From contig JAJFHT010000034.1 in the NCBI GenBank assembly GCA_021775495.1, forward strand, positions 1 through 44,131: a stretch of DNA of 44,131 nt, read 5' to 3'. Below, in pieces: positions 21,127-34,590 of this stretch; the stretch's first letter is position 1; every line of letters begins with the position of its first letter. The notes below the pieces were generated by a model that had not been told where the DNA came from, did not search any database, and saw nothing but the letters and a program-made list of their open reading frames with translations. The stretch is from Hyphomicrobiales bacterium. Lineage in GTDB: Bacteria > Pseudomonadota > Alphaproteobacteria > Rhizobiales > Rhizobiaceae. Made by a program: the position numbers and the translations under genes.

Positions 21127-22553
21127 CAAAGCGTCGAAATATATTGGGTTTCCATGAATTCCAGCATGCCTTCCTTACCGCCCTCTCGGCCAAGACCGGA
21201 CTGTTTGACACCTCCGAACGGCGCGGCCGGGTCTGATACCAGCCCGCGATTGAGCCCGATCATGCCGAATTCAAGCTGTTCGGAGAGACGCAGCCCACGT
21301 TGCAGGTCCCGGGTAAAGACATAGGCGACGAGGCCATATTCGGTGGCATTGGCCCGGCGGATCACCTCGTCCTCGTCGGTAAACGACTGGATGGCGGCAA
21401 CCGGACCAAATATCTCGTCATCAAGGCAATCGGCGGTCTCCGGCACATCGGTCAACACTGTCGGCGGATAGAAAAATCCGGGCCCGTCCGGCCGAACGCC
21501 GCCAAGCCGCAAACTGGCGCCCTTGGCAATTGCATCTTCGACAAACGCCGCGACCTTGTCTCGGGTATCGGCATTGACCAGCGGACCGACGTCAATGCCA
21601 TCATCAATTCCATTGCCGATCTCCAACGCTGCCATGCGCACAACAAACTTTTCGACAAACACATCGGCAACGTCCTCATGCACGAAAATGCGATTTGCCG
21701 CCGTGCAGGCCTCACCAAGATTACGCATCTTGGCCATCATCAGTCCTTCGACAGCAGCTGTAATATCGGCATCACGGCATACGATAAACGGAGCGTTTCC
21801 ACCCAATTCCATAGCCGGCTTTAATATTTGATCAGCCGACGAACGAAGCAGTTTACGACCAACCCCGGTCGAACCGGTGAATGACACCACACGCACACGC
21901 GGATCATGCAACATCGCATCGACCACGGCTCCCGATTGCCGCGAAGGCAGTACGTTGACAACACCTGGAGGTACCCCGGCCTCTTCCAGCAACGGCATCA
22001 GCGCGAGCATGGTCAACGGGGTCTCGCCGGCCGGCTTGATGACAACTGTGCAACCGGCTGCCAGCGCCGGCGCGATCTTTCTGGTGCCCATCGCCGCCGG
22101 ATAGTTCCATGGTGTTACCAGAACCGCGACACCGGCCGGCTTGTGATGTACCAGCGTGCGAGCCCCGGACGACGGTGCCATGCCCATATGGCCATCAACC
22201 CGAACTGCCTCCTCGGCGTACCAGCGAAAAAACTCCGCCGCATAAGCCGCCTCGCCCATCGCGTCCGCACGGGCTTTACCGTTTTCCAGGGTTATCAGCC
22301 GGGCGAAATCCTCAAGCCGCGCCGTGAACAGTTCAAACGCCTTTCGAAGTATTTCGCCGCGTTCACGTGGCTTCAGGCCGGACCACTCAGCCATTGCCGC
22401 GTGTGCTGCGGCAACAGCGGCAATAGCGTCCTCGACTGTTCCTGATGACACCTGCGCAAGCACGGTTTCGTCCGCCGGGTTCAGAACATCAAACCGCTCA
22501 CCATTTGCAGATTCCCGCCAGGCTCCATCGATGTAAAGCTCGGTGTGGATCAT
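21123..22553 (-). CDS. NAD(P)-dependent aldehyde dehydrogenase (succinate-semialdehyde dehydrogenase-like)
   Basis: A 476-residue cytosolic ALDH-superfamily enzyme. It shows TPWNYPAAM and KPAGETPLTML for cofactor binding, SFTGSTGVGRKLL, the general base Glu in ELGGNAPFIV, and the nucleophile Cys in GEACTAANRI. The ENGKARADAMGEAAYAAEFFRWYAEEAVR stretch resembles GabD-type enzymes. The ATG at 22553 has AAAGG nine bases upstream. The gene sits inside the E1/E2/E3 operon between the two E2-like genes. That placement suggests it removes an aldehyde released by the complex, as acetaldehyde is in acetoin cleavage. This role is inferred. Confidence 0.93.
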   Translation of the reverse strand: MIHTELYIDGAWRESANGERFDVLNPADETVLAQVSSGTVEDAIAAVAAAHAAMAEWSGLKPRERGEILRKAFELFTARLEDFARLITLENGKARADAMGEAAYAAEFFRWYAEEAVRVDGHMGMAPSSGARTLVHHKPAGVAVLVTPWNYPAAMGTRKIAPALAAGCTVVIKPAGETPLTMLALMPLLEEAGVPPGVVNVLPSRQSGAVVDAMLHDPRVRVVSFTGSTGVGRKLLRSSADQILKPAMELGGNAPFIVCRDADITAAVEGLMMAKMRNLGEACTAANRIFVHEDVADVFVEKFVVRMAALEIGNGIDDGIDVGPLVNADTRDKVAAFVEDAIAKGASLRLGGVRPDGPGFFYPPTVLTDVPETADCLDDEIFGPVAAIQSFTDEDEVIRRANATEYGLVAYVFTRDLQRGLRLSEQLEFGMIGLNRGLVSDPAAPFGGVKQSGLGREGGKEGMLEFMETQYISTLW

Positions 22554-22566
22554 CCTTTGTTGCCTT

Positions 22567-23586
22567 TCAAAGCAGATGTCGGAGAGGTTCGGCCACACGG
22601 CAAGCAAACCCGTTCATGAGTTCAGCCGCCCGTTCCGGTGACAACAAATCGTGTTGAAACTGCAATGTGAGACGGAGTTTCTTCTTGCCCTTGCGCGCAA
22701 CAACGAACGTCACATTCGCATCGGTGTCTCCTGCAGAGTACCCATCAAGTGCAGTACCGGTCAGATCGATGACGGACACATCGACAGTCGGTGTATCCCC
22801 TGTCAGTTCAACACCAGCCAGACCGCAAAGATCGGCATCTGTTGCGGTGGCCCTTGCACCGCGGCAACAGAGCGCCTGATACGCTGCGTGGAGGCTGGAA
22901 TAATAATCCTGGTTGTCACGCAGTGCGGCGCTGGCGAATGCCAGCCAGATCACCGCTTGCGTTACAGTTCCACCGCTTTCCTGTTTTGCCCACGCGGCAA
23001 ATTCTTCAAAAGTCTTTCGTTTCACGTTTGCCGTCACTGTGCTGATGGCGCCACCTTGTTTTGTCGGGCTGCTCAGCTTTTCCAGATCGGCAACGTGAAA
23101 TGGTTGATCGACACCCTGTCTAGTCAGTTGGCGCAGATCGAGCCCCCGCTCGTACGCCAGTCGCCTGGCTTTGGGTGACGCCAGAACCCGATCCGCAGAT
23201 GGCAAAATCGCAGCGCCGGACACGGGCTTGGGAGGAGCGATTTCAGGCGTCTGCTGAATTGGTTCTTGCTGCACTTCCGTTTCGTCAGAACTATCTGATC
23301 CAACGATTCCGGGTCCATCCGATTTAGGCGCAGCCGCGACAGCGCCCGGACGATCGGAGATGACCGCAATTACATCCCCGATCGGCACGTCACTTCCGGC
23401 CTCGGCTCGGATCTCCGTCAAAAACCCGTCATGACCGGCTTCAACTTCCATTGTGGCCTTGTCGGTCTCAACCTCCATCAGGATGTCGGCGGATTTGACC
23501 GGGTCGCCGGGCTTCTTCTGCCAGCTGACGATGATGCCGCTGTCCTGCGCCATGCCAAGCTGCGGCATTGTTATCTCATGCGACAC
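22567..23586 (-). CDS. Lipoyl-domain E2-like protein with a degraded catalytic domain
   Basis: A 339-residue protein with three parts. The first is a lipoyl domain (about 1-78) with the lipoyl Lys43 in VETDKATMEVEAG. The second is an Ala/Pro-rich linker leading to an E3-binding domain (ASPKARRLAYERGLDLRQL, about 135-171). The third is an acyltransferase-like domain (about 185-339) that aligns at its end with the intact E2 over 34 residues without gaps. There the DHRxxxG motif has become Gln311-His312-Asp313 with Pro317 in place of Gly, so catalysis is unlikely. The GTG at 23586 overlaps the E1beta stop by 11 bases and has GGAG nine bases upstream. It probably acts as the swinging-arm carrier of the complex. 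Confidence 0.9.
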   Translation of the reverse strand: MSHEITMPQLGMAQDSGIIVSWQKKPGDPVKSADILMEVETDKATMEVEAGHDGFLTEIRAEAGSDVPIGDVIAVISDRPGAVAAAPKSDGPGIVGSDSSDETEVQQEPIQQTPEIAPPKPVSGAAILPSADRVLASPKARRLAYERGLDLRQLTRQGVDQPFHVADLEKLSSPTKQGGAISTVTANVKRKTFEEFAAWAKQESGGTVTQAVIWLAFASAALRDNQDYYSSLHAAYQALCCRGARATATDADLCGLAGVELTGDTPTVDVSVIDLTGTALDGYSAGDTDANVTFVVARKGKKKLRLTLQFQHDLLSPERAAELMNGFACRVAEPLRHLL

Positions 23587-24571
23587 GGAAGAGTTCTCCA
23601 CGAACGGCAAGACGCGCCCGCTGCGCAACCACCTCGGCGGTTGGAACCGTCAGATCCTCCAGTGCCGGAGAAAACGGCACCGGAACGTCCATTGCGCCCA
23701 ATCGCCCAACCGGCGCATCGAGATGGTAAAATGCCTGCTCCGAAATTCTTGCAGCGATTTCCGCTGTGACACCGTAACTCTGATGGCCTTCATCGATAAC
23801 CATCGCCCGGCTGGTCTTTTTTACCGATTGAACAATGGTTTTGTCATCCAGAGGGACGATCGTGCGCGGATCGATCACTTCGGCAGAAATACCGTCAGCG
23901 GCCAACAGGTCCGCTGCCGCCAGCGCCACCTGAACCATCGAAGAGATCGCCACCAGCGTGATGTCGTTGCCTTGCCGCAGGACATTCGCCTCTCCGAAGG
24001 CAATGGTGTATTCCTCCTCCGGCACTGGTGCCTTGTCCTGGTACATCAGCTTGTCTTCAAAGATAACAACCGGGTTATTGTCGCGGATTGCCGTCTTCAG
24101 CAGGCCTTTGGCCTCATAGGCGCTGGAGGGAAGCGCCACCTTCAGACCTGGAATGTGGGCGACAAGCGCATGCAGCGACTGGCTGTGCTGGGCGGCCGAG
24201 CGGCGTGTCGCACCAAGATTGGTCCGCAAGACCATCGGCACGTTCAGCTTGCCGCCAGACATATAGTGGGTTTTGGCAGCCTGATTGCAGATCTGGTCCA
24301 TCACCAGAAACAGGAAATCGCCGAACATCAGATCAACGATCGGCCGCATGCCGGTCATGGCCGCGCCGACGGCAATTCCGGCAAAACCAGGTTCGGATAT
24401 CGGCGTATCGACAATGCGGTCAGGTCCAAATTCCTCGACGAGACCGGACAGAATCTTGAAAGGCGTACCGGCCTCCGCGACATCCTCCCCCAACAGGACG
24501 ATTGTCGGGTCGCTGCGCATTTCCTCAGCGATAGCTTCGTTGACGGCCTGTGAAAGCGTAATCTCGCGCAT
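23576..24571 (-). CDS. Thiamine-dependent acyl-CoA-forming dehydrogenase E1 beta subunit
   Basis: A 331-residue E1beta of the pyruvate/acetoin dehydrogenase type. It shows ITLSQAVNEAIAEEM at the N-terminus, VLLGEDVAEAGTPFKI with the ThDP-activating Glu region, DTPISEPGFAGIAVGAAMTGMRPI, and ATRRSAAQHSQSLHAL with the histidine usual in this family. The C-terminal transketolase domain carries IDPRTIVPLD. The ATG at 24571 has GGGAGG six bases upstream. With the adjacent alpha gene it should form an alpha2beta2 E1. The sequence does not distinguish a 2-oxoacid from an acyloin substrate. Confidence 0.93.
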   Translation of the reverse strand: MREITLSQAVNEAIAEEMRSDPTIVLLGEDVAEAGTPFKILSGLVEEFGPDRIVDTPISEPGFAGIAVGAAMTGMRPIVDLMFGDFLFLVMDQICNQAAKTHYMSGGKLNVPMVLRTNLGATRRSAAQHSQSLHALVAHIPGLKVALPSSAYEAKGLLKTAIRDNNPVVIFEDKLMYQDKAPVPEEEYTIAFGEANVLRQGNDITLVAISSMVQVALAAADLLAADGISAEVIDPRTIVPLDDKTIVQSVKKTSRAMVIDEGHQSYGVTAEIAARISEQAFYHLDAPVGRLGAMDVPVPFSPALEDLTVPTAEVVAQRARLAVRGELFRVA

Positions 24572-24610
24572 CACCGTCCTCCCGCCCTGAACACTGGCTG
24601 TGCCGGCCAC

Positions 24611-25591
24611 TCAAGCAGCGTAGACATGAGCATCGACCTCCGAGGATGGCGGATATGGAGCGTTCAGCGCATAATCGACGGCGGCCTTGGCGTTGGCGCG
24701 GATGCCTTCGTTTAGCGCATCAAGATCGGCGGCACTGGCGATCTTTTCCGCAATCAGCCAATCGCCGAAATTGGTGATCGGATCGCGATTTTTCTTCCAA
24801 TCTGCCTCTTCTTCCTTCGACCGGTAATAGGTCCGGTTGATGTCGCCGACATGGTGGCCGTGGTAGCGGTACGTCGCCAGTTCAACAAAAAAGGGGCCTT
24901 CGCCCTTGCGGGCGCGCTGAACCAGATCCTGGGTCAGCCGGTTGACGGCAAGAACATCCTGGCCATCGACCTTGAACGCCTCGATGCCAAAAGCTCTTGC
25001 CCGTCCGCCGATTTCTCCGGCCGCCATTTCCGACACATGGGTGTACTCGCCGTAAAGATTGTTTTCGCAGGCATAGATCATCGGCAGCCTCCACAGCGCC
25101 GCCATGTTCATGACCTCGTAGAGCAACCCTTGGCCCAGAGCGCCGTCGCCGAAAAAACAGACGGAAACAGCACCTGTTCCCAGTCTTTTGGCCGTCAATG
25201 CAGCCCCGGTTGCAATGCCCGCAGAACCTCCGACGATGGCGTTGGCGCCAAGATTGCCGTTCTCCTGATCGGCAATATGCATGGAGCCACCCTTGCCGCG
25301 GCAATAGCCTTCCGCCTTGCCCAGCAATTCACAGAACATCTCCTTGAACTTGGCGCCCTTGGCAACGCAATGCCCGTGGCCGCGATGGGTCGATGTAATA
25401 TGGTCGGTTTTCTCCAGTGCCTCACAGATTCCCACTGCGACGGCTTCCTGACCGCTGTACATGTGGGTCAGCCCCGGCATTTTTGCCGACAGGTAAAGCT
25501 GGTTGGCGTTGTCTTCAAATGTGCGGATACGGACCATCTGCTCATACATGCGCAGCAGGCCATCCGCATTGGAGGATTTCTTCTTCGCCAT
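24611..25591 (-). CDS. Thiamine-dependent acyl-CoA-forming dehydrogenase E1 alpha subunit
   Basis: A 326-residue E1alpha, closest in overall look to acetoin dehydrogenase and pyruvate dehydrogenase alpha chains. It shows HMYSGQEAVAVGICEAL, the THRGHGHCVAKGA histidine motif, GKAEGYCRGKGGSMHIAD, and the ThDP/Mg motif GDGALGQGLLYEVMNMAALWRLPMIYACENN. The phosphorylation-loop region YRYHGHHVGD is also standard. AGGAA lies eight bases before the ATG. It is preceded by the M24 gene (10 bp) and followed by E1beta (39 bp). It catalyses ThDP-dependent cleavage and acyl transfer to lipoamide; the physiological substrate is unknown. Confidence 0.94.
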   Translation of the reverse strand: MAKKKSSNADGLLRMYEQMVRIRTFEDNANQLYLSAKMPGLTHMYSGQEAVAVGICEALEKTDHITSTHRGHGHCVAKGAKFKEMFCELLGKAEGYCRGKGGSMHIADQENGNLGANAIVGGSAGIATGAALTAKRLGTGAVSVCFFGDGALGQGLLYEVMNMAALWRLPMIYACENNLYGEYTHVSEMAAGEIGGRARAFGIEAFKVDGQDVLAVNRLTQDLVQRARKGEGPFFVELATYRYHGHHVGDINRTYYRSKEEEADWKKNRDPITNFGDWLIAEKIASAADLDALNEGIRANAKAAVDYALNAPYPPSSEVDAHVYAA

Positions 25592-25601
25592 GTCGCGGTT
25601 C

Positions 25602-26900
25602 CTAGTAGCGATTGGCGATCGGGAGATCCTGTGCCGGGAACAGGCTGATGACCTGGCACCCGGTATCGGTCACCACAACCTCCTCTTCAATCCGAGCCGC
25701 CGAATAGCCGTCATCGGCCGGACAGAAAGTCTCCAGTGCAAACACCATGCCGGTGCGGATTTCCATCGGGTCGTCGAATGAAACCAACCGCGAGATGATC
25801 GGCCGCTCGTGCAGCGCCAGACCAAGCCCGTGACCGAACTGCAGGCCGAAAGCCGCCAATTCGTTCGGAAAACCAAAATCCTCAGCCTTGGGCCACACGG
25901 CAGCAACGGTGTCGGTCGATATACCGGGCTTGATCAGCGAAATCGCATGATCCAGCCATTCGCGGCACTTCACATAGGCATCGTTCTGGCCAGGCGTGGC
26001 AAAACCGACATTGAAAGTGCGGTAGTAGCAGGTTCTGTAGCCCTGGTAGGATTGCAGGATGTCAAAGAACGCCTGGTCGCCCGGCCGGATCAGGCGGTCG
26101 GTAAAATTGTGCGGATGCGGACTGCAGCGCTCGCCCGATATGGCGTTGATAGCCTCGACGTCATCCGAGCCCATCTCGTAGAGCATCTTGTTGGACATGG
26201 CGACGATATCGCTCTCGCGCACACCCGGCTTCAGCTCTTCGTAAATCATGTGATAGACGCCGTCGACCATCGCGGCGGCCTGGTTCAGCAGCATGATCTC
26301 GTCGATATTCTTGATCTCACGCGCATCGAGCATGACCTGCTGGCCATCGACGATTGTCATCCCTGCCTTTTGCAGTTCAAAAAACATCGCTGTTTCGGCA
26401 TAGTCGACACCGACCGGCATATCGGCAACGCCGGCCGCCTTGAGCAGGCCCATGATCTCCTCGGCATGGTTTTTCATCAGACCTACGGCCGGCGGCACGG
26501 TTCCCCGCATGCCGAGCATGCCCGCACGGCAGCGCTCTGGATCAAGCCAGTCACAATAAAGGCGGTGATGCACGGCAGCGGAACCAAAATCCCAGACGAT
26601 CGGCTCCTCATCACCCATCAGCAGCGCGAAACGGCACAATTTGTCCCGCTCCCACTCGCCAATCTTCGTCCCCGACACGTAACGGATATTGTTGACGTCA
26701 AACAGCAACAAAGCGCCGCACTCGGAGTTCTTCAGAGCTTCGCGCGCCCGTGCAAGCCGGTAGCGGCGCAACCGGTCATGATCGACACGCCTTTCGAAAT
26801 CGACGGCCATGTGGCCCGGCGCCGGGATATGGCGGTCCCACCGCCAGTTCGGGTTCATGTCTTCAGGGCGCAGAAGCCGTGGGTTGAGTGCCGTGTTCAT
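25602..26900 (-). CDS. M24 (pita-bread fold) family protein, DddP/creatinase-like, altered metal site
   Basis: A 432-residue two-domain protein of the Xaa-Pro peptidase/creatinase superfamily. The N-terminal part contains CGALLLFDVNNIRYVSGT, which resembles the DddP DMSP-lyase branch. The C-terminal pita-bread domain normally binds two metals through Asp, Asp, His, Glu, Glu. Here Asp280 (FFDI), His357 (FGHGLGLALHE), Glu390 (ALETF) and Glu405 (RIEEE) are kept, but the second Asp is Cys291 (YRTCYYRTF). A normal dinuclear peptidase site is therefore doubtful. The ATG at 26900 has GGAGG close upstream. It sits between the regulator and E1alpha, so it probably prepares the E1 substrate as a lyase or hydrolase. 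That is inferred. Confidence 0.9.
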   Translation of the reverse strand: MNTALNPRLLRPEDMNPNWRWDRHIPAPGHMAVDFERRVDHDRLRRYRLARAREALKNSECGALLLFDVNNIRYVSGTKIGEWERDKLCRFALLMGDEEPIVWDFGSAAVHHRLYCDWLDPERCRAGMLGMRGTVPPAVGLMKNHAEEIMGLLKAAGVADMPVGVDYAETAMFFELQKAGMTIVDGQQVMLDAREIKNIDEIMLLNQAAAMVDGVYHMIYEELKPGVRESDIVAMSNKMLYEMGSDDVEAINAISGERCSPHPHNFTDRLIRPGDQAFFDILQSYQGYRTCYYRTFNVGFATPGQNDAYVKCREWLDHAISLIKPGISTDTVAAVWPKAEDFGFPNELAAFGLQFGHGLGLALHERPIISRLVSFDDPMEIRTGMVFALETFCPADDGYSAARIEEEVVVTDTGCQVISLFPAQDLPIANRY

Positions 26901-26938: not shown

Positions 26939-28759
26939 CTAGTAATGTCCGTGAGACCGCATCAGCGCATCCGCACGGTTTTGTGCATTGGCCAGCGCCT
27001 GTTCGACGGATTTTGCACCGAGCAACATGTCGTGCACCTCCTCGCCGGCGATGGCGATGATATCTGTGATCTCGGGAACCGGGGGCCGCGGCCACATCTG
27101 CAGAACTCCGAAACGGGCCATCTCATCCACTATGGAAATGAGCGGCGAAATCCGTTTGACTTCGGGGTCCATTGCGACGCTGAACCGTGGGCTCACAAGG
27201 CTTCCGTTCTCCAGATAGAGCTTTACCGTTTGCGCCGAGGTAAGCGATATCAAAGCTGTCCAGATTGGATTAACCCGCTCCGGAGCGATGTTTGCGGGAA
27301 TGGCAAGTGCATATCCGCCGATCGGCGCAATGCTGCGCGCGCCCGGACCTGCGGGGTGCGGCAGATACTCGGTGTTGCCGAATGCCGGCGAATTCTTGTC
27401 GAGTTCGAACAGCGGCGCCAGCAATGTTGCGCAGTAGGCGATCGCGGCGCCGCCATCGGCATAGCAGCGGGCTCGCTCGTACCAGGACATGTTGAGAATT
27501 CCGCGCGGTGAGTAGTTCAGCAGTTCGCGGAAATATTCGGCAGTGGCCCTAGCCTCCGGCGTATCGAACATCGGTCGGAAATCTTCACCCTCGACATTCT
27601 CTCCGTCAAAACCAGCACCCAGTCTTTTCAGGTTGAGCACCGGCAGGCCGAAGGCACTCATGACGAACAGGAAAGAGTGTCCGAGCGGAGTGCCACGGGC
27701 AGCGTTCCAGGCAATTCCGGAGATGCCGCGAAACGGATCGTGCAGTTTGCGGGCCGCACTAAGCGTTTCCTCGATGGTGCGCGGCGGCTCGATGTCATTT
27801 GCGGCAAACACATCGCTGCGGCAAACAAGCAACTCGGGAGTTGTCTGCACCGGAATACCGAATTGCCGGCCATGGTAGCGAGCGCTGGCCAGAGCTTCGG
27901 AATGGAAATCAGTCGTATCAAAATTGGAAGCCGCAATCAGATCATCCAAAGGCATCAGATGACCGGATGCGGCCATTTCGCCGAACCAGGGAAGATCGCA
28001 GGCAATGATATCGTAACGCGATGTCGGCGCTTTCGCATTGTCGAGGATTTCCTCGCGCAAGCGATCTATCGACAAAGCCCGGCTGCGAATGCCGACGCCA
28101 AAGACGTTTTCGAACTGCTTCTTCAGCACATGCATCGCCATGAAGGTCGGATCGGCATGCACCAGTATTCTGAGGTCCTGGCTGATCGACAATTTCGATT
28201 CCAGAATACTGGGCGCCGGCAACACGCTGCCGGTTGTATATGATGCACCGAAAAAATACTCCGAAGCAGCCGGTTCAGCCGAGTTGCCCTGACTGGCCAT
28301 GACACCCAGCAGGGAACGCGTCCGCCGGGCATATTCCTGCCATTCCTGCAGCATTCTCTCGGTCGGGTGCAGCGAAAAGGATTTGCCCGTCGCGGTCCGT
28401 GGTCGCCGCGAGACCAGACCACGCTCGAAAAGTGAATCAATTCCGCGCATGGCCGTGCCATAGGACAGGCCGGAACTGCCAACCAGTGATGAACTCGTGG
28501 TCAGTTTCCCAGTCAGATGATTGCGCAGCAGCGCAATCATCATGCGCATCTCGCTGTAGCCGGTCTTGATCGACAAGGCGCGTTCGGTTTCGCTTTCCAA
28601 CTGCTCGACAAAATCAAGAAACCGCGCCATCTCGTGGCTCGATACACCGAAGACCTGACCATGAACCGAGGTATCATAGGGCCCCTCCGGCTTGCCCCTC
28701 AGGCGTGTCGGAGGAGTGATCCGCTTTGCAACGGCTGCTGTGTGCGTGAGTTCGGGCAC
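26939..28759 (-). CDS. Fusion regulator: winged-helix DNA-binding domain plus solute-binding-protein domain
   Basis: A 606-residue protein without signal peptide or membrane segment. Residues about 60-150 form a MarR-like winged helix: RMMIALLRNHLTGKLTTSS, GLSYGTAMRGIDSLFERGLV as recognition helices and SRRPRTATGKSFSLHPTER as the wing. After a linker, residues about 195-595 resemble a full family-1 extracellular solute-binding protein (DLRILVHADPTFMAMHVLKKQF, YDIIACDLPWFGEMAASGHLMPLDDLI, FGIPVQTTPELLVCRSDVF, SFLFVMSAFGLPVLN). The whole is therefore likely a cytosolic one-component regulator sensing a sugar-like ligand. It starts with GTG; AGGA lies six bases upstream, inside an inverted repeat. 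It stands between the CUT2 transporter genes and the enzyme genes and is the only DNA-binding regulator in that run. Confidence 0.88.
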   Translation of the reverse strand: MPELTHTAAVAKRITPPTRLRGKPEGPYDTSVHGQVFGVSSHEMARFLDFVEQLESETERALSIKTGYSEMRMMIALLRNHLTGKLTTSSSLVGSSGLSYGTAMRGIDSLFERGLVSRRPRTATGKSFSLHPTERMLQEWQEYARRTRSLLGVMASQGNSAEPAASEYFFGASYTTGSVLPAPSILESKLSISQDLRILVHADPTFMAMHVLKKQFENVFGVGIRSRALSIDRLREEILDNAKAPTSRYDIIACDLPWFGEMAASGHLMPLDDLIAASNFDTTDFHSEALASARYHGRQFGIPVQTTPELLVCRSDVFAANDIEPPRTIEETLSAARKLHDPFRGISGIAWNAARGTPLGHSFLFVMSAFGLPVLNLKRLGAGFDGENVEGEDFRPMFDTPEARATAEYFRELLNYSPRGILNMSWYERARCYADGGAAIAYCATLLAPLFELDKNSPAFGNTEYLPHPAGPGARSIAPIGGYALAIPANIAPERVNPIWTALISLTSAQTVKLYLENGSLVSPRFSVAMDPEVKRISPLISIVDEMARFGVLQMWPRPPVPEITDIIAIAGEEVHDMLLGAKSVEQALANAQNRADALMRSHGHY

Positions 28760-28765
28760 GGCTGG

Positions 28766-28794
28766 TCCTGTAAACGAGATCGACGTTTACAGGA
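28766..28794. promoter_or_regulatory. 11-bp inverted repeat overlapping the regulator gene's ribosome-binding site
   Basis: TCCTGTAAACG at 28766-28776 and CGTTTACAGGA at 28784-28794 are perfect inverted repeats separated by seven bases. On the minus strand the downstream arm ends in the AGGA Shine-Dalgarno, six bases before the GTG start of the fusion regulator. The element could be an operator for autoregulation, or an mRNA hairpin that hides the ribosome-binding site. Confidence 0.6.
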
Positions 28795-28795
28795 T

Positions 28796-28814
28796 AATAT
28801 CCAATTCAGATATT
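28796..28814. promoter_or_regulatory. Operator-like palindrome 1 upstream of the fusion regulator
   Basis: AATATCCAATTCAGATATT contains AATATC and GATATT arms around seven bases. It lies in the 84-bp gap between the second permease gene and the regulator gene. It aligns with the site 30 bp away (28826-28844) to give the consensus AATRTCCAWWTYRGATATT, reducible to TATCCA-N3-TGGATA. Confidence 0.5.
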
Positions 28815-28825
28815 TCTAAGCAGAA

Positions 28826-28844
28826 AATGTCCATATTGGATATT
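28826..28844. promoter_or_regulatory. Operator-like palindrome 2 upstream of the fusion regulator
   Basis: AATGTCCATATTGGATATT has seven-base arms with one mismatch around five bases. Its core ATGTCCATATTG (28827-28838) recurs exactly, on the other strand, at 33698-33709 in the ABC/SDR divergent promoter region. It touches the stop codon of the permease gene. Its centre is 30 bp, about three helical turns, from palindrome 1. Confidence 0.55.
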
Positions 28845-29908
28845 TAACCAACCCCACTCGCCGCAGCCGCTCGTTTCTTTTCCAGAAACATTTCCCGTCG
28901 TCGATCGACATCGCGCATGACCTGATCACGTCGCTGATGATCATCAAATATCCGCGAACCGGTCTGGAACATGATGACCACCATCAGCAGAATGCCGAGA
29001 TAGAGTTGCACCATGAATGCCGGAGTGACGTTGAAGACCAGGCCGGTGTTGAGAAAATTCACTGTCAGCGTTCCGATCGCAGCACCAATCACGCCACCGC
29101 GTCCACCAAGAATGCTGACGCCACCAATGAAAGCGGCGACAGTTCCAGCCAGAAGCAGATATTGCAGGCCCAGTGCCTGGGCCGTTCCCGAGCGCAATCC
29201 GATGATAACGCCACCAAGTCCGGCACAGAAGCCGGAAATTGCGAATACGATGATCATCGGTCGTTTCAGACTGATGCCCGACGCCAACGCTTCCTTGCGC
29301 GCACCGCCGATCGCATAGATCTCGCGGCCAAACCGGGTGTAATTCATGAACAGGCCGACCAGAACGAACGTCAAAATCACCAGCAGGCTGGCGGGCGAGA
29401 AGTAACCCAGCATTTTCTCCGAAATGAAATCCGGGACCGTGAAGTCGGTCAGCATCACGGTTTTCTCTTCCGCGGCAAATAGCGCCACACCCCGCAGCAA
29501 CATCAGCGTACCAACTGTCAGAACGATGGCCCGAACCCGCAAATAGGCAATGAAATAGCCTTGAATCAGACCGATAGTGGTAGATGTCGCGACCGCGATC
29601 AGCAATGCTGTCTCAGCGCCAAGACTGTCGGTAAACCGCACGACGATGACCGCGGCAAGCGCCGCGTTTGAACCGATCGAAAGGTCGATTTCACCGGCAA
29701 TGATACACAACGTCAGCGCCAGGCCGACCAGCCCAAGAACCGCGAAGCGTTCCATGATCGCGTAAACGGTGCGGTGGGTGGCGAAAAACTCGTTGGTGAA
29801 AGCGAAATAGCCATACACACAGACGGCCAGCAGAATAGCGAATGCCAGATCCGGATTATGGGCGACTGCGTTTTTGAGCCGGGTGAACATGCCAGTCTCC
29901 GTGTCCAT
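28844..29908 (-). CDS. CUT2-type sugar ABC transporter permease
   Basis: A 354-residue integral membrane protein of the ribose/branched-chain permease family (BPD_transp_2). About ten hydrophobic segments are visible. Family features are GLALTLCIIAGEIDLSIGSNAALAAV in the first half and FIGGVSILGGRGGVIGAAIGTLTVNFLNTGL in the second. A charged C-terminal tail (RRDQVMRDVDRRREMFLEKKR) is probably cytoplasmic. It follows the other permease gene with two bases between. The pair would form a heterodimeric channel fed by the binding protein at 32552-33589. Confidence 0.93.
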   Translation of the reverse strand: MDTETGMFTRLKNAVAHNPDLAFAILLAVCVYGYFAFTNEFFATHRTVYAIMERFAVLGLVGLALTLCIIAGEIDLSIGSNAALAAVIVVRFTDSLGAETALLIAVATSTTIGLIQGYFIAYLRVRAIVLTVGTLMLLRGVALFAAEEKTVMLTDFTVPDFISEKMLGYFSPASLLVILTFVLVGLFMNYTRFGREIYAIGGARKEALASGISLKRPMIIVFAISGFCAGLGGVIIGLRSGTAQALGLQYLLLAGTVAAFIGGVSILGGRGGVIGAAIGTLTVNFLNTGLVFNVTPAFMVQLYLGILLMVVIMFQTGSRIFDDHQRRDQVMRDVDRRREMFLEKKRAAAASGVG

Positions 29909-29910
29909 GA

Positions 29911-30936
29911 CTATTCCTGTGCCCTGCTGCCGCGCCTTACCAACGCGAAGACTATGATGCTGAAAACAATCATCAGTCCGACGGCAAGGACCCGCGGCCC
30001 GCTATTGAAACCATGCAAAACCATCATGTTGTCGACGGTCGAGATGAATACGGCACCGAGACTTGATCTCAACGTCGAGCCAAATCCGCCCATAATCGAG
30101 TTCCCGCCGACCATCACCGTGGCAATGACCAGAATGGTCATGTCACCGGATGACCCGAACTCCGACGAGAAATAGTTGACGTGGGCGCTCGAAACCTGGG
30201 CGGAAAAAGCAATCGCCACAAACGCCGAACAAATTGATGCGATGGCGCATGTCTTGATTGCCATGGAAAAATTTTCGTGGCCGGTTGCTTTGCCAGCGGC
30301 ACGGTTGGCGCCGATCAGATAAACCTGACGGCCGAAGGTGGAATAACGCAGCACGATTTCGGCAGTGATTGATATCAGGATAAAGGCAATGGTGATGTTC
30401 GGCAGACCAAACAGCGAGCCCGATCCAAGCCATTCCGCGCCGTGTGGACGGCGAAAGGACACCACGAGATTCTCGCTCCACCAGGAGGCAACACCGAAAA
30501 ACAGACCGGCCGCCCCGAGCGTCACGACGATCGGATTGCCGCCAAGACCGATCAACGCGCCCTGTAGAACGCCGGCCGCCAGCGCAATCAGCATGGTGAA
30601 CAGGAAGGACAGCTCGAAGCCGTATCCCGCTGACATCGCAGTTGCAAACGCAATGATCGACAGCGCCGCTGTCTCCTTCATGGAGAGCAGGAAAAAATTT
30701 CCCGAAAGCGTCACGAAGGTCAGACCAATGGCCATGATCCCGACCAGCGCGGCATCGCGAACGATGGTCTTGAGATTGAACAGGGTCAGGAAATTCGGCG
30801 CCGTGACCATGCCGTAGAGAAACACCGCAAGGAACAACGCGACCAATACGATGACGATCGGTGAGTGGTTCTGAATAATCCGATTGAACAGGGAAGCCGG
30901 AGACGCGCTGGCGTAGACATTGGCGGTGGTGTTCAT
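29911..30936 (-). CDS. CUT2-type sugar ABC transporter permease
   Basis: A 341-residue membrane protein of the same family as its neighbour: IMAIGLTFVTLSGNFFLLSMKETAALS and MVGGNSIMGGFGSTLRSSLGAVFISTVDNMMVLHGF are the paired family motifs. About nine or ten hydrophobic segments are present. It starts 15 bp after the ATPase stop. Two different permeases in one CUT2 operon are usual for one transporter. Confidence 0.93.
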   Translation of the reverse strand: MNTTANVYASASPASLFNRIIQNHSPIVIVLVALFLAVFLYGMVTAPNFLTLFNLKTIVRDAALVGIMAIGLTFVTLSGNFFLLSMKETAALSIIAFATAMSAGYGFELSFLFTMLIALAAGVLQGALIGLGGNPIVVTLGAAGLFFGVASWWSENLVVSFRRPHGAEWLGSGSLFGLPNITIAFILISITAEIVLRYSTFGRQVYLIGANRAAGKATGHENFSMAIKTCAIASICSAFVAIAFSAQVSSAHVNYFSSEFGSSGDMTILVIATVMVGGNSIMGGFGSTLRSSLGAVFISTVDNMMVLHGFNSGPRVLAVGLMIVFSIIVFALVRRGSRAQE

Positions 30937-30951
30937 GGCTCTCGACCGTTT

Positions 30952-32457
30952 CTAAAGATTGGTTTCATCGAACGGATCGGTGATCTGTTTGAGGATCGCC
31001 GCGGCAGTCATGTCATTCAGTCCGATCTCACCGATCTGCATACCGCGATAGAAGGTGATGACCCGGTCGGGCAGATTGGAGATCTCCTGAATATCAGTCG
31101 ATGCAACGACGATCGCCGCGCCATCGTCGGCCAGATCACGCAGCTTGCGATAGATTTCCGCACGTGCTCCGACATCAACGCCCCTTGTCGGTTCGTTGAC
31201 AAGAATGATTTTCGGTTCGATCGACAACCACTTGCCGAGCGCAACTTTCTGCTGGTTACCACCGCTCAGAACACCGGCTTCGGCACCGAGACGACTGACA
31301 TCGATGGTGTATTTTGTGGCGATTCCGCGGGCCATCGTCCGCTCGGCGAGTCTGGACATCCACCCGAAACTCGATACCGCACCGAGCGCCGGCGACGTCA
31401 GGTTTTCCCGTATCGGACGTCCGAGAAACAGGCCGTCATGCTTGCGGTCTTCCGAACAATAGCCAATGCCGTTCGCGATTGCTTCCTGCGGATTAGCCGG
31501 CAGGAATTCACGCCCCTGATAGGCCAGTTTGCCATCGCGTGTGCGCTGAGCGCCGCCAATAGCGGCCAGAATTTCGCCCGATCCACTACCAAGCTGTCCG
31601 GCAAGACCGAGAATTTCGCCTGGATAGATATCGAAACTGACCGGTTCAAGCAGACCATCCGGCCAGAGGTCTTTTACGCCCACCAATGGTTTCGGGCGCT
31701 CGATGACGGCGGGCCGCTCAGGAAACATGTTCTTCAGTTCCCGGCCAAGCATCAGCTCGACAAGCGAATTGACATCCAGTTCGCTGGCCTTTTTCGGTTC
31801 CTGGCTTTCTCCGTCCCGCAACACCGTGATCCGATCGGTTATCTTGAATATCTCATCCATGCGGTGGCTGACATAGATGATCGACTTACCGCGTTCGGCC
31901 AGGCGCGCGACCATCTCCAATATGCGGATACTGTCGGATTCCCCCAGCGCTGCTGTCGGTTCATCAAGGATGAGTACCCGCGGATCGTGGGCAATCAGCC
32001 GGGCCACTTCGACCAGATGGCGTTCCCCGACTGACAGACGATCGACACCAGTCGCCGGATAAATGTCACCGAGACCGACCTCATCAAGATATTTGCGTGC
32101 CTTGCGGGCAAGATCGCGTTTGGTTGCAAATGTCGGGACGTTGTGGCCGGCCAGAAAGATGTTTTCGGCGACGCTCATCGTCGGTATCAGGCTGAGCTCC
32201 TGCTGGGCAATCGCAATGCCGGCCTGCTCGGCTTTTCCGGGGTTGGAAAACCGGATTGGATTCCCATCAAGCAGGAACTCGCCGGTATAACCGTCATCAA
32301 ATCCGCTGATGACCTTCACAAGTGTGGATTTCCCTGCTCCGTTTTCGCCGACCAGACCCATGACCTCACCGGGTCCGATCTCGAAATCGACGCCGCGCAG
32401 CGCGTGGATGGCACCGAACGACCTGGAGACAGAAGAGAGTTTAAGCAGAGGTTGCAT
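30952..32457 (-). CDS. CUT2-type sugar ABC transporter ATP-binding protein
   Basis: A 501-residue protein with two ABC domains, as in RbsA/XylG. Domain 1 has Walker A GENGAGKSTLVKV, signature LSVGERHLVEVARL and Walker B VLILDEPTAAL. Domain 2 has a degraded Walker A (GQLGSGSGEI), signature LSGGNQQKVALGKW and Walker B IILVNEPTRGVDVG with Asn for the usual Asp. Degeneration of one nucleotide site is common in this family. It energises import by the two permeases that follow. It begins after a 94-bp gap holding two hairpins. Confidence 0.95.
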   Translation of the reverse strand: MQPLLKLSSVSRSFGAIHALRGVDFEIGPGEVMGLVGENGAGKSTLVKVISGFDDGYTGEFLLDGNPIRFSNPGKAEQAGIAIAQQELSLIPTMSVAENIFLAGHNVPTFATKRDLARKARKYLDEVGLGDIYPATGVDRLSVGERHLVEVARLIAHDPRVLILDEPTAALGESDSIRILEMVARLAERGKSIIYVSHRMDEIFKITDRITVLRDGESQEPKKASELDVNSLVELMLGRELKNMFPERPAVIERPKPLVGVKDLWPDGLLEPVSFDIYPGEILGLAGQLGSGSGEILAAIGGAQRTRDGKLAYQGREFLPANPQEAIANGIGYCSEDRKHDGLFLGRPIRENLTSPALGAVSSFGWMSRLAERTMARGIATKYTIDVSRLGAEAGVLSGGNQQKVALGKWLSIEPKIILVNEPTRGVDVGARAEIYRKLRDLADDGAAIVVASTDIQEISNLPDRVITFYRGMQIGEIGLNDMTAAAILKQITDPFDETNL

Positions 32458-32477
32458 TCAATTCTCGCGCCCGATGG

Positions 32478-32497
32478 TTTGGTCACAGATGACCAAA
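32478..32497 (-). other. Small hairpin in the binding-protein/ATPase intercistronic gap
   Basis: TTTGGTCA-CAGA-TGACCAAA is a perfect eight-base stem with a four-base loop. It lies just upstream of the ATPase start on the minus-strand transcript, after a stronger hairpin. There is no following U-tract, so it is not a classic terminator. Confidence 0.45.
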
Positions 32498-32501
32498 ACC
32501 A

Positions 32502-32528
32502 CCCGGGAAACCGTGAGGGTTCCCCGGG
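32502..32528 (-). other. Strong intercistronic hairpin after the binding-protein gene
   Basis: CCCGGGAAACC at 32502-32512 and GGTTCCCCGGG at 32518-32528 pair across a five-base loop. The single mismatch on the plus strand becomes a G-U pair in minus-strand RNA, so the 11-bp stem is complete in the operon's transcript. It lies 23 bp after the binding-protein stop. It probably protects the upstream mRNA or attenuates read-through, giving more binding protein than transporter, as in other ABC operons. Confidence 0.6.
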
Positions 32529-32551
32529 CGGCAGTTGCCTGAAAATTCTGC

Positions 32552-33589
32552 TTAGTTGGCCCAGGCACCCGAACACAGTTCTTCGATGCCGTAAAGCTTG
32601 CCATCAAAACCGCGTAGCGCAGTGGTGGCGATGGTTTCCTTGGTTACCGCAGGATTTGGAGTGAAGTTGATGTAATTCTGCAGTTTGCCGGTCGCCAGGT
32701 ATTCCTCGACCAGCTTGATGGCGAGCTGACCTTCATGCAGCGGTGACTGCAAGGTCGTTCCGAACTGCTTGCCTTCCTCGATCAGCTGCTTGTCGCCATT
32801 GCACACCGTGCCGACGGCAATCACATCATCGCCCATCTTGAAACCGGCTTCTTCAAGCGCCTTGATACCGCCGGTCAGAATGGCATCATCCATACCATAA
32901 ACAAAGTGGATGCCCTGATCCTTGAGTTTTGCGACGAGTTTGGCCGCACCCTTGTAGCCGTTGGCCTGACCGAAACCTTCGTCGACATCACCGATGACCT
33001 TCAGATCGGATCCGGCAATGGCTTCATTGAAGGCATTGATCGACAGGCCGTATCCACCATAGGAATGCGGGTAGGCAAGGACGAGCACATTGAAGCCGTC
33101 GCCGCCCGCTGCCTTCTTTGCCGCGGCCGCCTCACGCATCATGTAACCGGCATTGCGCGCCCGCAAACGATCGTCAGGACCGGCATATCCGAAGATATAC
33201 TTCTTGTCCTGCTCGTTTGGCAGCTGGTTGATTTTCAGCACCGGAACGCCGGTTTTGTGCAATGCGCGCAGTGAACCGAGACCCGCCGTCGCATCCGATG
33301 GCCACCAGATGAAAACGTCCGGAAGCTGGCCAGCGGCCAGCACCTGCTGAACCTGCTGGTCCTGCTCCGCCTGGTTGAACTGGTTCTCAAAAACCTTGAT
33401 GTCATAGCCCTTGAGCTTGGCTGTTTCCTTGATGCCGGTGATGAAGCGGCCGATATAGGCCTCACCCGCCGGTCCATTGAATGAAACAATCGAGCCCTTC
33501 TTGTCCTGTGCCATCGCGCCCGAAAGCACAACGCCCAGACCGATGCACATCGCGGCGACAAAGCCGAATGCTCTTCTCAAATTAATCAT
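32552..33589 (-). CDS. CUT2-type sugar ABC transporter periplasmic binding protein
   Basis: A 345-residue type-I periplasmic binding protein (ribose/autoinducer-2 family). The Sec signal peptide ends near residue 27 (GVVLSGAMA-QDKKG). The mature protein shows GEAYIGRFITGIKETAKLKGYDIKV, VQQVLAAGQLPDVFIWWPSDATAGLGSLRAL and the late VYGMDDAILTGGIKALEEAGF. GGGAGGA precedes the ATG. It is the first gene of the operon and should be the most highly expressed. The ligand cannot be read off. Its fold differs from the solute-binding domain of the fusion regulator in the same operon. Confidence 0.95.
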   Translation of the reverse strand: MINLRRAFGFVAAMCIGLGVVLSGAMAQDKKGSIVSFNGPAGEAYIGRFITGIKETAKLKGYDIKVFENQFNQAEQDQQVQQVLAAGQLPDVFIWWPSDATAGLGSLRALHKTGVPVLKINQLPNEQDKKYIFGYAGPDDRLRARNAGYMMREAAAAKKAAGGDGFNVLVLAYPHSYGGYGLSINAFNEAIAGSDLKVIGDVDEGFGQANGYKGAAKLVAKLKDQGIHFVYGMDDAILTGGIKALEEAGFKMGDDVIAVGTVCNGDKQLIEEGKQFGTTLQSPLHEGQLAIKLVEEYLATGKLQNYINFTPNPAVTKETIATTALRGFDGKLYGIEELCSGAWAN

Positions 33590-33671
33590 GGAATCCTCCC
33601 ATACCTGTTGAGGCCAATGCGAATAGCCTGCCGCAGTGTGTCAGATCGCCTGTGACTGGATGAATAGCGGT

Positions 33672-33690
33672 TTTATCCAGATTGGCTCAT
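33672..33690. promoter_or_regulatory. Degenerate operator-like site in the ABC/SDR divergent promoter
   Basis: TTTATCCAGATTGGCTCAT keeps the left half TATCCA and the TGG of the TATCCA-N3-TGGATA consensus. Its centre is 20 bp from that of the better site at 33692-33710. A CTGGAT half-site at 33656-33661 also forms an inverted repeat with ATCCAG at 33675-33680. Taken alone this site would be weak. Confidence 0.3.
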
Positions 33691-33691
33691 T

Positions 33692-33712
33692 CATGTTCAA
33701 TATGGACATATT
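33692..33712. promoter_or_regulatory. Operator-like palindrome in the ABC/SDR divergent promoter
   Basis: AATATG-GA-CATATT at 33699-33712 is a perfect palindrome in the middle of the 197-bp gap between the divergent ABC operon and SDR gene. The 12-mer CAATATGGACAT (33698-33709) is the exact reverse complement of the core of the site at 28826-28844. The position suits control of both directions by one regulator. Confidence 0.55.
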
Positions 33713-33786
33713 TGCAATTCCAAGCTTTTGCGCCAGACGCCAGTGTCGATGCAGTTTTGTAGCAATAGCATTGGAGGAAATCCGGG

Positions 33787-34590
33787 ATGGACAAATCAAG
33801 GCTCGCCGGAAAACACGTCCTCATCACGGGCGGCGCCCAGGGCATGGGAGCCGCGATTGGCGAATATTATGCGGCACAGGGCGCAAAAGTCTGTCTGGGT
33901 GATCTGAACCTGCAGGGTTGCCAGGATGTCGTCGAACGCATCAAGTCCGCCGGCGGAGAGGCTGTGGCGATTTCACTTGATGTCACCGAACGTGCGCAGA
34001 TGGCAGCTGCCGTGCAGGCCACTGTCGACGCGTTCGGGTCGATCAACGTCATGCTCAACAATGCCGGCATCAACAAGCCTTTGATGTTCCTTGATGTCAC
34101 CGAGGAAAATTTCCGCAAGATCATGGATGTCAATGCACTCGGCGTTCTGATCGGCATGCAGGAAGCAGCCAAACAGATGATCAAACAGGGGAAACAGGAC
34201 TACCCCTACAAGATCATCAACGTCGGCTCGATCCTGTCGCGTCAGGCTTTTGATGATGTTGTGCCCTATGCCTGCTCGAAACATGCCGTTCTCGCGATGA
34301 TCAATGGTGGCGCCAAGGCGCTTGTCGAACACAACATCACTGTCAACGGCTATGGCCCGGGTGTGGTGCGGACTGAATTATGGGAACAGCTGGACAAGGA
34401 TCTTGTTGCGATTGGCAAGTTCGAGAAAGAAGGCCAGTCGATGGACCAGCTCGCCGAAGACATGATCCTGATGAAACGCTACTCCTATCCCGAAGACGTT
34501 GTCGGTTCGGCAGCCTTCCTGGCATCGGCTGAATCCGATTATATGACCGGGCAATTGTTCATGATCGACGGCGGAATGATCATGCAGTAA
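33787..34590 (+). CDS. SDR family oxidoreductase, divergent from the ABC operon
   Basis: A 267-residue classical SDR with the cofactor motif TGGAQGMGAAIG, an Asp after the second strand (CLGDLN, favouring NAD), MLNNAGIN, the serine in INVGSILSRQ, and YACSK as the catalytic Tyr/Lys. The C-terminus MTGQLFMIDGG is standard. GGAGG lies about ten bases before the ATG. It is transcribed away from the transporter operon from a shared promoter region and is followed by an ABM-fold gene. It probably oxidises the imported compound or a derivative; the substrate is unknown. Confidence 0.94.
   Translation: MDKSRLAGKHVLITGGAQGMGAAIGEYYAAQGAKVCLGDLNLQGCQDVVERIKSAGGEAVAISLDVTERAQMAAAVQATVDAFGSINVMLNNAGINKPLMFLDVTEENFRKIMDVNALGVLIGMQEAAKQMIKQGKQDYPYKIINVGSILSRQAFDDVVPYACSKHAVLAMINGGAKALVEHNITVNGYGPGVVRTELWEQLDKDLVAIGKFEKEGQSMDQLAEDMILMKRYSYPEDVVGSAAFLASAESDYMTGQLFMIDGGMIMQ

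Follow-up and report, generated by a model that had tools for sequence, protein, structure and literature searches.

In SgrR of E. coli and DsvR of Vibrio cholerae, an N-terminal helix-turn-helix (HTH) is followed by a C-terminal SBP_bac_5 solute-binding domain, as described in PMC13060122, where E. coli SgrR is also said to regulate itself negatively. A related design is known from synthetic PBP-DBD chimeras, in which a periplasmic binding protein joined to a DNA-binding domain yields a ligand-responsive transcription factor (PMC6079105). Our literature search, partial in its coverage, returned no report of a regulator composed of an HTH and an SBP_bac_1 domain. LysR and LacI proteins combine a DNA-binding domain with a binding-protein-like effector domain; the LysR effector domains are much smaller and those of LacI are type-I folds. 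MarR proteins, which are often repressors, have about 140 amino acids and accommodate their ligands in this one small domain. Btr of B. subtilis consists of an AraC HTH and a siderophore-binding-like domain, and fusions of GntR with SBP_bac_1 may exist in Firmicutes.

The window analysed here, a stretch of DNA of 44,131 nucleotides, contains a gene (26939..28759, minus strand, open reading frame with GTG start) for a 606-aa protein with a MarR-type winged helix and a family-1 solute-binding domain. It shares with SgrR and DsvR a layout (PMC13060122) in which a single chain combines an HTH with a complete solute-binding domain; it has no export signal and is, like them, sugar-related. It differs from them in having SBP_bac_1 in place of SBP_bac_5, a MarR-like DNA-binding domain, and catabolic operons with a sugar-type ABC transporter and a short-chain dehydrogenase (SDR). 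The original prediction had regarded such an effector module as unusual; the domain itself is supported, but SgrR and DsvR offer a precedent (PMC13060122). In contrast to the engineered chimeras, the fusion is natural and conserved across Proteobacteria, and it would show a full-size maltose-binding-protein-type domain working as sensor in a natural one-component regulator, a design that synthetic biologists assemble by hand. The evidence points to an intracellular DNA-binding switch that would sense through an entire sugar-binding-protein fold. The predicted regulatory role is supported, as are the two domains and the cytosolic location.

A winged helix joined to a solute-binding domain

The N-terminal domain (residues 36-156; 28292..28654, minus strand) is backed by a structural model, the match to MepR and invariant residues. 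Modelled alone it reached a pLDDT of 90.5. Helices are predicted at 41-61, 70-82, 89-96, 100-112 (the putative recognition helix) and 134-155, and strands at 116-120 and 128-132; the long first and last helices are those of the MarR winged-helix fold. Comparison with MepR (4l9t) gave a Z of 12.5 (rmsd 2.7, 115 residues aligned), a value within the range reachable by a common arrangement, and the 50 rows of the fold search with this domain were mostly MarR-family proteins by title, with a few others (2qvo and T4 MotA 1bja, Z about 10). R79, H81, G84, S96, Y100, T102, R105, R119 and H131 are invariant across 41 aligned sequences. A MarR-like winged helix had been predicted at about residues 60-150; an HTH is indeed modelled there, and only the limits proved slightly short (about 40-155).

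The winged helix came from structure prediction and not from Pfam: none of the HTH models reached its cut-off with the window protein, the best being PF22168 (E 0.12, residues 76-117), and MarR and MarR_2 gave no match at E up to 1. The likeness to the MarR family lies in the fold. Among 41 family members, MarR_2 was matched weakly in 14 (best E 0.0014) and MarR in five (0.0052); SgrR_N (presumably PF12793) and SBP_bac_5 were absent from the 18 families matched by these members at E up to 1, and membership of SgrR or MarR by Pfam was rejected. Likewise, neither the LysR nor the LacI HTH family appeared among the Pfam matches of the window protein or of the 41 members. A betaproteobacterial relative (L146) carries on one chain HTH_IclR (31.0 bits, cut-off 22) and SBP_bac_1 (68.5 bits, cut-off 26).

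A linker of low confidence (residues 156-184; 28208..28294, minus strand; pLDDT below 50) leads to the solute-binding domain (residues 188-606; 26942..28198, minus strand). The profile search placed SBP_bac_1 (PF01547) at residues 248-490 (E 1.1e-15, 58.9 bits, cut-off 26) and SBP_bac_8 at 214-535 (E 6.8e-11, above its curated cut-off), and both were present in 41 of 41 family members. The model (residues 188-600) has the full two-lobe fold, with a Z of 47.0 against 5iai (Arad_9887; rmsd 2.3, 395 aligned) and of 42.8 against MalE3, so that the domain foreseen at about 195-595 is confirmed with slightly wider limits. Many W, R, H, D, N and P residues are invariant in 41 sequences, down to 40% identity. 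The nearest solved relatives are transporter binding proteins, from which the regulator differs by lacking a signal peptide, by its fusion to a DNA-binding domain and by falling into a separate clade. The ligand of 5iai we take to be ribitol.

Cellular location, relatives and public annotation

Absence of a signal peptide had also been predicted, and we assessed it with an 11-residue hydropathy scan for which unfused homologues served as control. In 22 of 27 unfused homologues, a segment above 1.8 lay directly in front of the mature domain. Among 30 fused relatives, only one had such a segment before the winged helix (L093, in an overlong start extension), and none of the 30 exceeded 1.8 in the linker. 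The window protein scored 0.55 at the N-terminus and 1.11 in the linker, both below 1.8, and thus shows neither a signal peptide nor a lipoprotein anchor, the mark of exported binding proteins, which supports a cytosolic protein. A 19-residue scan agreed on the window protein; it is a weak test that flags only six of the 27 unfused homologues, and for this reason the controlled scan was preferred. The first 19-residue scan was limited to the matched part of 40 relatives; on first-start reading frames it flagged L063 alone of 53, in sequence preceding the probable start, and, within the 30 fused relatives of the tree, L093 and L145.

Relatives were found at 57 genome loci and in 36 plasmid records; 33 of these 36 cover at least 80% of the regulator length. 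Alignment A1 comprised 40 of the 57 loci; fragments, one interrupted copy and near-duplicates were excluded by hand (L048, L056, L062, L064, L066, L069, L071-L073, L075, L076, L080, L081, L083, L086, L087, L089). The fused reading frame runs uninterrupted even in relatives with as little as about 26% identity, and a frameshift joining two genes is therefore ruled out. The domain tree groups 31 fused proteins in a single clade, separate from 22 unfused ones (SH-aLRT 99); five unfused proteins with short matches had been dropped and two transporter proteins added, and the placement of several branches is unsure because they are long. Frameshift and chance fusion were rejected on the conserved open fusion and this single clade, and the orthologue check proposed with the original prediction, in genome loci and plasmid records alike, returned a conserved fusion.

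Contrary to this evidence, public annotation treats the regulator as an exported sugar-binding protein. The label 'extracellular solute-binding protein' stands in 28 of 36 plasmid records, correctly in at least one of them (H35/L147, unfused). Many 'extracellular' binding proteins would thus be intracellular regulators, and transporter inventories of marine and soil bacteria would be affected.

Neighbouring genes and an operator-like palindrome

The regulator gene is followed downstream by genes for an M24/creatinase-fold enzyme (25602..26891) and 2-oxo-acid-dehydrogenase-type E1 alpha (24611..25591) and beta (23576..24610) subunits, all on the minus strand. On its other side lie, also on the minus strand, a sugar-type ABC transporter with two permeases (28844..29908 and 29911..30936), an ATPase (30952..32457) and a type-I (Peripla_BP_4) binding protein (32552..33589), and divergently the SDR gene (33787..34590, plus strand), which is the most constant neighbour of the regulator gene; the binding-protein and SDR genes are likely targets. 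The transporter having its own Peripla_BP_4 protein, the regulator does not appear to serve as its binding protein. It had been suggested that uptake and sensing rely on different folds: this is so in the window (Peripla_BP_4 versus SBP_bac_1) but not throughout the family, since two plasmid loci, L142 and L145, place the regulator next to a transporter whose binding protein is SBP_bac_1/SBP_bac_8. A plasmid search with the type-I protein at 1e-60 gave no match, and a literature search for a hydroxyquinol or inositol link to the substrate returned nothing on topic.

Both DNA stretches proposed for binding contain a 15-base palindrome, TATCCANNNTGGATA, in imperfect copies with one to three mismatches (28798-28842 and 33674-33708). 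Upstream of the regulator gene, TATCCAATTCAGATA (28798..28812, two mismatches) is followed at 30 bp by TGTCCATATTGGATA (28828..28842, one mismatch); between the SDR and transporter genes, TATCCAGATTGGCTC (33674..33688, two mismatches) is followed at 20 bp by TGTTCAATATGGACA (33694..33708, three mismatches). At two mismatches the palindrome is not specific genome-wide (107 matches versus 60 for the reversed control). Scanning for sigma-70 promoters gave no promoter-like match in 33500-33850, and in 28650-28950 one 9-of-12 match on the plus strand, against the direction of the regulator gene.

In relatives, 18 of 19 alphaproteobacterial SDR/transporter promoters hold the palindrome within two mismatches, against a mean of 0.21 and a best of 3 for 89 permuted controls. 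Ahead of the regulator gene it is present in 13 of 21 alphaproteobacterial regions (controls: mean 0.13, best 2) and missing from the other eight. Six loci, L049, L050, L084 and the more distant L092-L094, did not contribute SDR promoters to these counts; upstream of their SDR no palindrome was found within three mismatches. Pairs with starts exactly 20 bp apart, defined as one site within two mismatches and a partner within four, were present in 17 of the 19 promoters. Eight of eight sites in five annotated plasmid loci were intergenic, versus 12.4% of positions, although gaps in the PLSDB gene tables can make too much count as intergenic; these were five of six fused plasmid loci, the sixth, L146, having no palindrome within two mismatches. 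In the genomes of L034, L047 and L084 the exact match lay only at the regulator, among the matches listed. The palindrome also adjoins relatives at about 34% identity (L096), and Halomonas SDR promoters carry it in 24 of 32 cases at three mismatches and in one of 32 at two (rank 7 of 90). It accompanies the regulator gene across alpha- and gammaproteobacteria despite changing catabolic genes, and adjoins the gene in many loci.

Alphaproteobacterial promoters, when aligned, revealed no common promoter. In the Halomonas type, where promoters were inferred from conservation, all 12 transporter promoters have the site centre 51 bp from the -10 element by a loose pattern (TTGNNN-N17/18-TANNNT) picked after inspection of the sequences, standard sigma-70 scoring giving this promoter in only one of 12; under strict scoring, the site centre lies 50 bp from -10 in 16 of 32 SDR promoters. 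Both spacings put the site centre at about -62/-63 of a conserved promoter-like element, and the weaker second half of the pair abuts -35.

Proposed mechanism and rival readings

We consider it likely that the protein is a cytosolic one-component regulator that binds the palindrome pairs, senses a substrate with its solute-binding domain and switches transport and catabolic genes. Its MarR-type winged helix, probably as a dimer, would bind TATCCANNNTGGATA pairs in front of the regulator gene and in the spacer that separates the divergently oriented SDR and ABC-transporter genes. The cleft of the two-lobe domain may receive either the imported substrate itself or the product of its first oxidation, possibly a sugar-, polyol- or cyclitol-like compound, and lobe closure would change the geometry of the winged-helix dimer and so switch the genes. 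The regulator would thus be a ligand-responsive one for a sugar- or polyol-like catabolic regulon and is probably an activator, a position of about -63 being typical of activators. The site and the candidate regulon give routine experiments a defined starting point for identifying the ligand and the pathway. Chances slightly better than even are given to the wider proposal of an uncharacterised, widely mislabelled family of ligand-sensing activators that occurs in alpha-, beta- and gammaproteobacteria, small AT-rich genomes of alphaproteobacteria among them, and would derive from one MarR-type and maltose-binding-protein-type fusion. Its tandem 15-bp palindromes, 20 bp apart on one helix face from about -62, would have been kept as operator while operons were swapped, with an oxo-acid-dehydrogenase type in many alphaproteobacteria and a ring-cleavage dioxygenase type in Halomonas and Marinobacterium.

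Activation is favoured because of the site position in Halomonas-type promoters, although MarR proteins are often repressors. The same architecture and site could belong to a classic repressor that blocks promoters when ligand-free and is released by ligand, and the sites upstream of its own gene would permit negative autoregulation, as described for E. coli SgrR (PMC13060122). Yet the Halomonas-type site centre at about -62/-63 is upstream of -35 and not over it, at nearly equal distance in two different promoters, which leaves repression a tentative reading to which we give about one chance in three. A solute-binding domain that takes no ligand and serves dimerisation or protein contacts, with control through regulator abundance or a partner, is improbable for a domain that is complete, strongly conserved in 41 sequences and nearest to transporter binding proteins.

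The link between protein and palindrome is drawn from co-occurrence, and the palindrome might belong to another regulator of the same genes, with the window protein as a cytosolic cofactor; we hold this to be distinctly improbable, as the palindrome travels with the regulator gene across alpha- and gammaproteobacteria while catabolic genes change, and adjoins that gene in many loci. That the protein is an ordinary exported binding protein whose N-terminus happens to be unusual, as the 28 plasmid labels and the top Pfam match to SBP_bac_1 would have it, is hardly credible against an N-terminus and linker free of signal-like segments (versus 22 of 27 unfused homologues), the modelled winged helix, the transporter's own type-I binding protein and the conserved DNA site in neighbouring promoters. 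It should be added that a perfect inverted repeat at 28766-28794 was rejected as an operator, since none of 20 alphaproteobacterial relatives has its arm within the 200 upstream bases, and is better read as an RNA hairpin.

Architecture and predicted cytosolic location of the proposed regulator

The regulator gene (26939-28759, - strand) starts with GTG and comprises 606 codons. Pfam searches placed SBP_bac_1 (58.9 bits, cut-off 26) and SBP_bac_8 (42.9 bits, cut-off 27) in the C-terminal two thirds of the product but found no family above cut-off in its N-terminal part. In the AlphaFold model (41 aligned sequences; mean pLDDT 79.7, pTM 0.78), residues 41-155 form an N-terminal helical domain bearing a beta wing, residues 156-184 a linker modelled with low confidence, and the chain from residue 196 onward a two-lobe domain. 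Structure comparison matched the two-lobe part with 5iai, an ABC-transporter binding protein from Agrobacterium (Z 47.0, rmsd 2.3; 395 residues aligned at 25% identity). Maltose- and trehalose/maltose-binding proteins also aligned (Z 42.8 and 42.5, respectively), in agreement with the proposed family-1 solute-binding domain. Residues 36-156 modelled alone reached pLDDT 90.5 and returned MarR-family regulators on top, MepR being first (Z 12.5, rmsd 2.7, 115 aligned); judged by title, the majority of the 50 matches listed were MarR-type, with the non-MarR-titled chains 2qvo and T4 MotA also reaching Z of about 10. MarR-family chains were likewise on top among the Foldseek matches listed (E 9.5e-5 to 1.4e-3), and the MarR-like winged helix could thus be upheld.

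Absence of a signal peptide, also claimed originally, was assessed with an 11-residue hydropathy scan (threshold 1.8) of segments before the mature domain, before the winged helix or within the linker. Of 27 unfused homologues, 22 have a segment above the threshold immediately N-terminal to their mature domain; of 30 fused relatives, one has it ahead of the winged helix (locus L093, within a start extension far upstream) and none in the linker. The regulator itself scored 0.55 at the N-terminus and 1.11 in the linker. A 19-residue scan gave the same answer but was insensitive. Because the 11-residue scan flags most unfused homologues and not the regulator, the latter is predicted, by a test detecting most exported homologues, to be without an export signal. 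It should be added that 28 of 36 plasmid records with relatives (H1-H36) are annotated as "extracellular solute-binding protein", a label that is contradicted for fused members by this predicted absence.

Distribution of the fusion and its gene neighbourhood

When about 85,000 species genomes were scanned with a pattern-based method, relatives turned up at 57 loci (41-79% identity over the best segment), including some in Rhizobiaceae- and Rhodobacteraceae-like alphaproteobacteria, Halomonadaceae, Marinobacterium and Saccharospirillum, and near-full-length relatives (34-54% identity) were present in 6 of 60 related genomes. The 36 plasmid records, from Phaeobacter, Rhizobium, Shinella, Tritonibacter and others, showed query coverage of at least 80% in 33 cases; not all are fusions, and H35 (L147), for one, is an unfused binding protein of the ordinary kind. 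Searching with a winged-helix profile alone gave matches in 6 of 289 genomes of the class. These occupy seven places, one of them in the window, and each lies in an open frame of 567-641 residues; the six places beyond the window (L135-L140) all carried SBP_bac_1 above cut-off. A single chain from Paraburkholderia likewise combined HTH_IclR (31.0 bits, cut-off 22) with SBP_bac_1 (68.5, cut-off 26). Judging from these sequences, the fusion is real and conserved. A quick maximum-likelihood tree built from the solute-binding domains had one branch separating 31 fused from 22 unfused sequences (SH-aLRT 99), long branches cautioning against further reading; a single fusion event would be the simplest reading. 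In Halomonas cerina, the match at L069, which lies on a 3.2-kb contig, extends over about 2.3 kb rather than 1.75 kb, and this copy therefore looks interrupted; the same strain has a second, intact copy (L077).

Upstream of the regulator, the - strand of the window encodes a sugar-type transporter (28844-33589) with a type-I (Peripla_BP_4) binding protein, a sugar-type ABC ATPase and two permeases, divergent to a short-chain dehydrogenase (SDR) gene (33787-34590, + strand). Downstream are genes for an M24/creatinase-fold enzyme and 2-oxo-acid-dehydrogenase-type E1 alpha and beta, followed by a lipoyl protein, an aldehyde dehydrogenase, an E2 catalytic domain and an E3-like flavoprotein. The E2 is split into two genes with the aldehyde dehydrogenase between them (20224-23628, - strand; lipoyl protein 22567-23628, catalytic domain 20224-21129, both - strand), an order also found on Phaeobacter plasmid pGal_E78.

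The operon context was retained among orthologues to differing extents. Eighteen of the 57 loci preserve the order of SDR, the four transporter genes and regulator; at 34, in Halomonadaceae and Marinobacterium, the regulator was followed by a convergent SDR gene (about 80% identity). Since SDR was present at 53 of 57 loci (the remaining L037, L038, L048 and L069 lie on short or cut contigs) while neighbouring operons differ, regulator and SDR are, from gene order, the apparent constant pair. At L053 a different operon precedes the regulator, with a type-I binding protein (26% identical to that of the window), permeases, ATPase, iron alcohol dehydrogenase, amidohydrolase, 3-hydroxyisobutyrate-dehydrogenase-like protein, catechol-type ring-cleavage dioxygenase, nitroreductase and TauE. 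The dioxygenase was confirmed also at L074 and L049; M24 and aldehyde dehydrogenase genes took its place at L071. At L053/L121, L074 and L049, regulator and SDR thus stand beside a ring-cleavage operon instead of the oxo-acid-dehydrogenase one, hinting at two possible routes for one substrate. Neighbours of distant relatives are annotated as inositol dehydrogenase, sugar-phosphate isomerase, maleylacetate reductase and intradiol dioxygenase, and gene names suggest sugar-, polyol- or cyclitol-like compounds as a shared theme. In the 1.4-Mb alphaproteobacterial genomes of L138 and L139 (33-34% GC in the fetched stretch), which by their size and base composition may belong to a streamlined marine group, the regulator gene is divergent to that of a type-I binding protein, which at L138 is 72% identical to that of the window, the regulators being 32% identical.

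A candidate operator

Reading of upstream regions revealed a repeated 15-bp palindrome, TATCCANNNTGGATA, at 28798 and 28828 upstream of the regulator gene (2 and 1 mismatches) and at 33674 and 33694 between SDR and transporter (2 and 3 mismatches); a first-order Markov model predicts, for 44 kb, 0 sites at either 0 or 1 mismatch and 0.4 at 2 mismatches. It ranked first against 89 permuted half-sites scored on the same sequences. At 2 mismatches it was found in 18 of 19 alphaproteobacterial SDR|transporter promoters, the regions between these divergent genes (control mean 0.21, best 3), and in 13 of 21 alphaproteobacterial regulator upstream regions (mean 0.13, best 2), being absent from the other eight. 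At 3 mismatches it occurred in 10 of 12 Halomonas-type transporter promoters (mean 0.90, a near-variant reaching 9) and 24 of 32 Halomonas SDR promoters (mean 2.58, best 10). As TATCCANNNTGGATA was derived from some of the counted sequences, these counts are not fully independent of its discovery. At 2 mismatches one of the 32 Halomonas SDR promoters retained it (rank 7), because the form there reads ATCCAATCTGGTCA, and no site within 3 mismatches precedes SDR at L049, L050, L084 and L092-L094. Genome-wide numbers count against TATCCANNNTGGATA: 107 sites versus 60 for the reversed control in the window genome (2 mismatches) and 76 versus 36 summed over 14 further genomes (1 mismatch). Two results speak for it. 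In the L034, L047 and L084 genomes, the one exact match among those listed lies beside the regulator, and at the five annotated plasmid loci that contain sites, all 8 are intergenic versus 12.4% of positions (binomial P 5.5e-8, treating sites as independent); controls averaged 0.19 intergenic and 1.33 coding. L138 and L139 carry AT-rich versions, TATTCAAATTGAATA and TATTCAATTTGAATA.

In 17 of 19 alphaproteobacterial SDR|transporter promoters, the starts of two sites are separated by exactly 20 bp (one site within 2 mismatches, its partner within 4), the 10 other pairs detected being scattered among 8 other spacings. Upstream of the regulator, pairs lie 29-31 bp apart in 7 of 21 alphaproteobacterial regions and 21 bp apart at all four more distant loci examined. 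These spacings are near whole DNA turns, as would be expected for two dimers on one face. In all 12 Halomonas-type transporter promoters, 51 bp separate the site centre from the first base of a conserved TTGNNN-N18-TANNNT element, a loose pattern picked after viewing the sequences; one of the 12 passed standard promoter scoring. Under strict scoring, 16 of 32 Halomonas SDR promoters have CTGTCA-N18-GA(C/G)AAT at 50 bp. The distance of 50-51 bp puts the candidate site near -62/-63 in the presumed promoters, a common place for activator binding.

Proposed function and precedents

Taken from sequence and models, the protein is quite probably a ligand-responsive one-component regulator; we moderately favour an activator over a repressor, and lean slightly towards a sugar, polyol or cyclitol as ligand. 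The putative winged-helix dimer would sit on the palindromes, and the solute-binding domain would act as cytosolic sensor for the imported compound or its SDR product, putative lobe closure being passed on to the dimer.

The effector module had been considered unusual, and this stands in part. No regulator combining HTH and SBP_bac_1 was reported in the literature searched, but PMC13060122 describes DsvR, a transcription factor that joins HTH to SBP_bac_5 and is homologous to E. coli SgrR; regulators containing an entire solute-binding domain are therefore already known as a kind. In the present family, no member had a match to SgrR_N or SBP_bac_5. Chimeras of binding protein and DNA-binding domain have, according to PMC6079105, been engineered on purpose, whereas the present fusion is natural. 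The main interest of the family thus lies in its broad distribution, conserved site and common public mislabel.

Just 5' of the GTG start there is also a perfect 11-bp inverted repeat (28766-28794, - strand), an arm of which was not found upstream of the gene in any of 20 relatives checked. The repeat folds as an RNA hairpin (-21.3 kcal/mol, z -5.1) with AGGA, a likely-looking ribosome-binding site, in its 3' arm.
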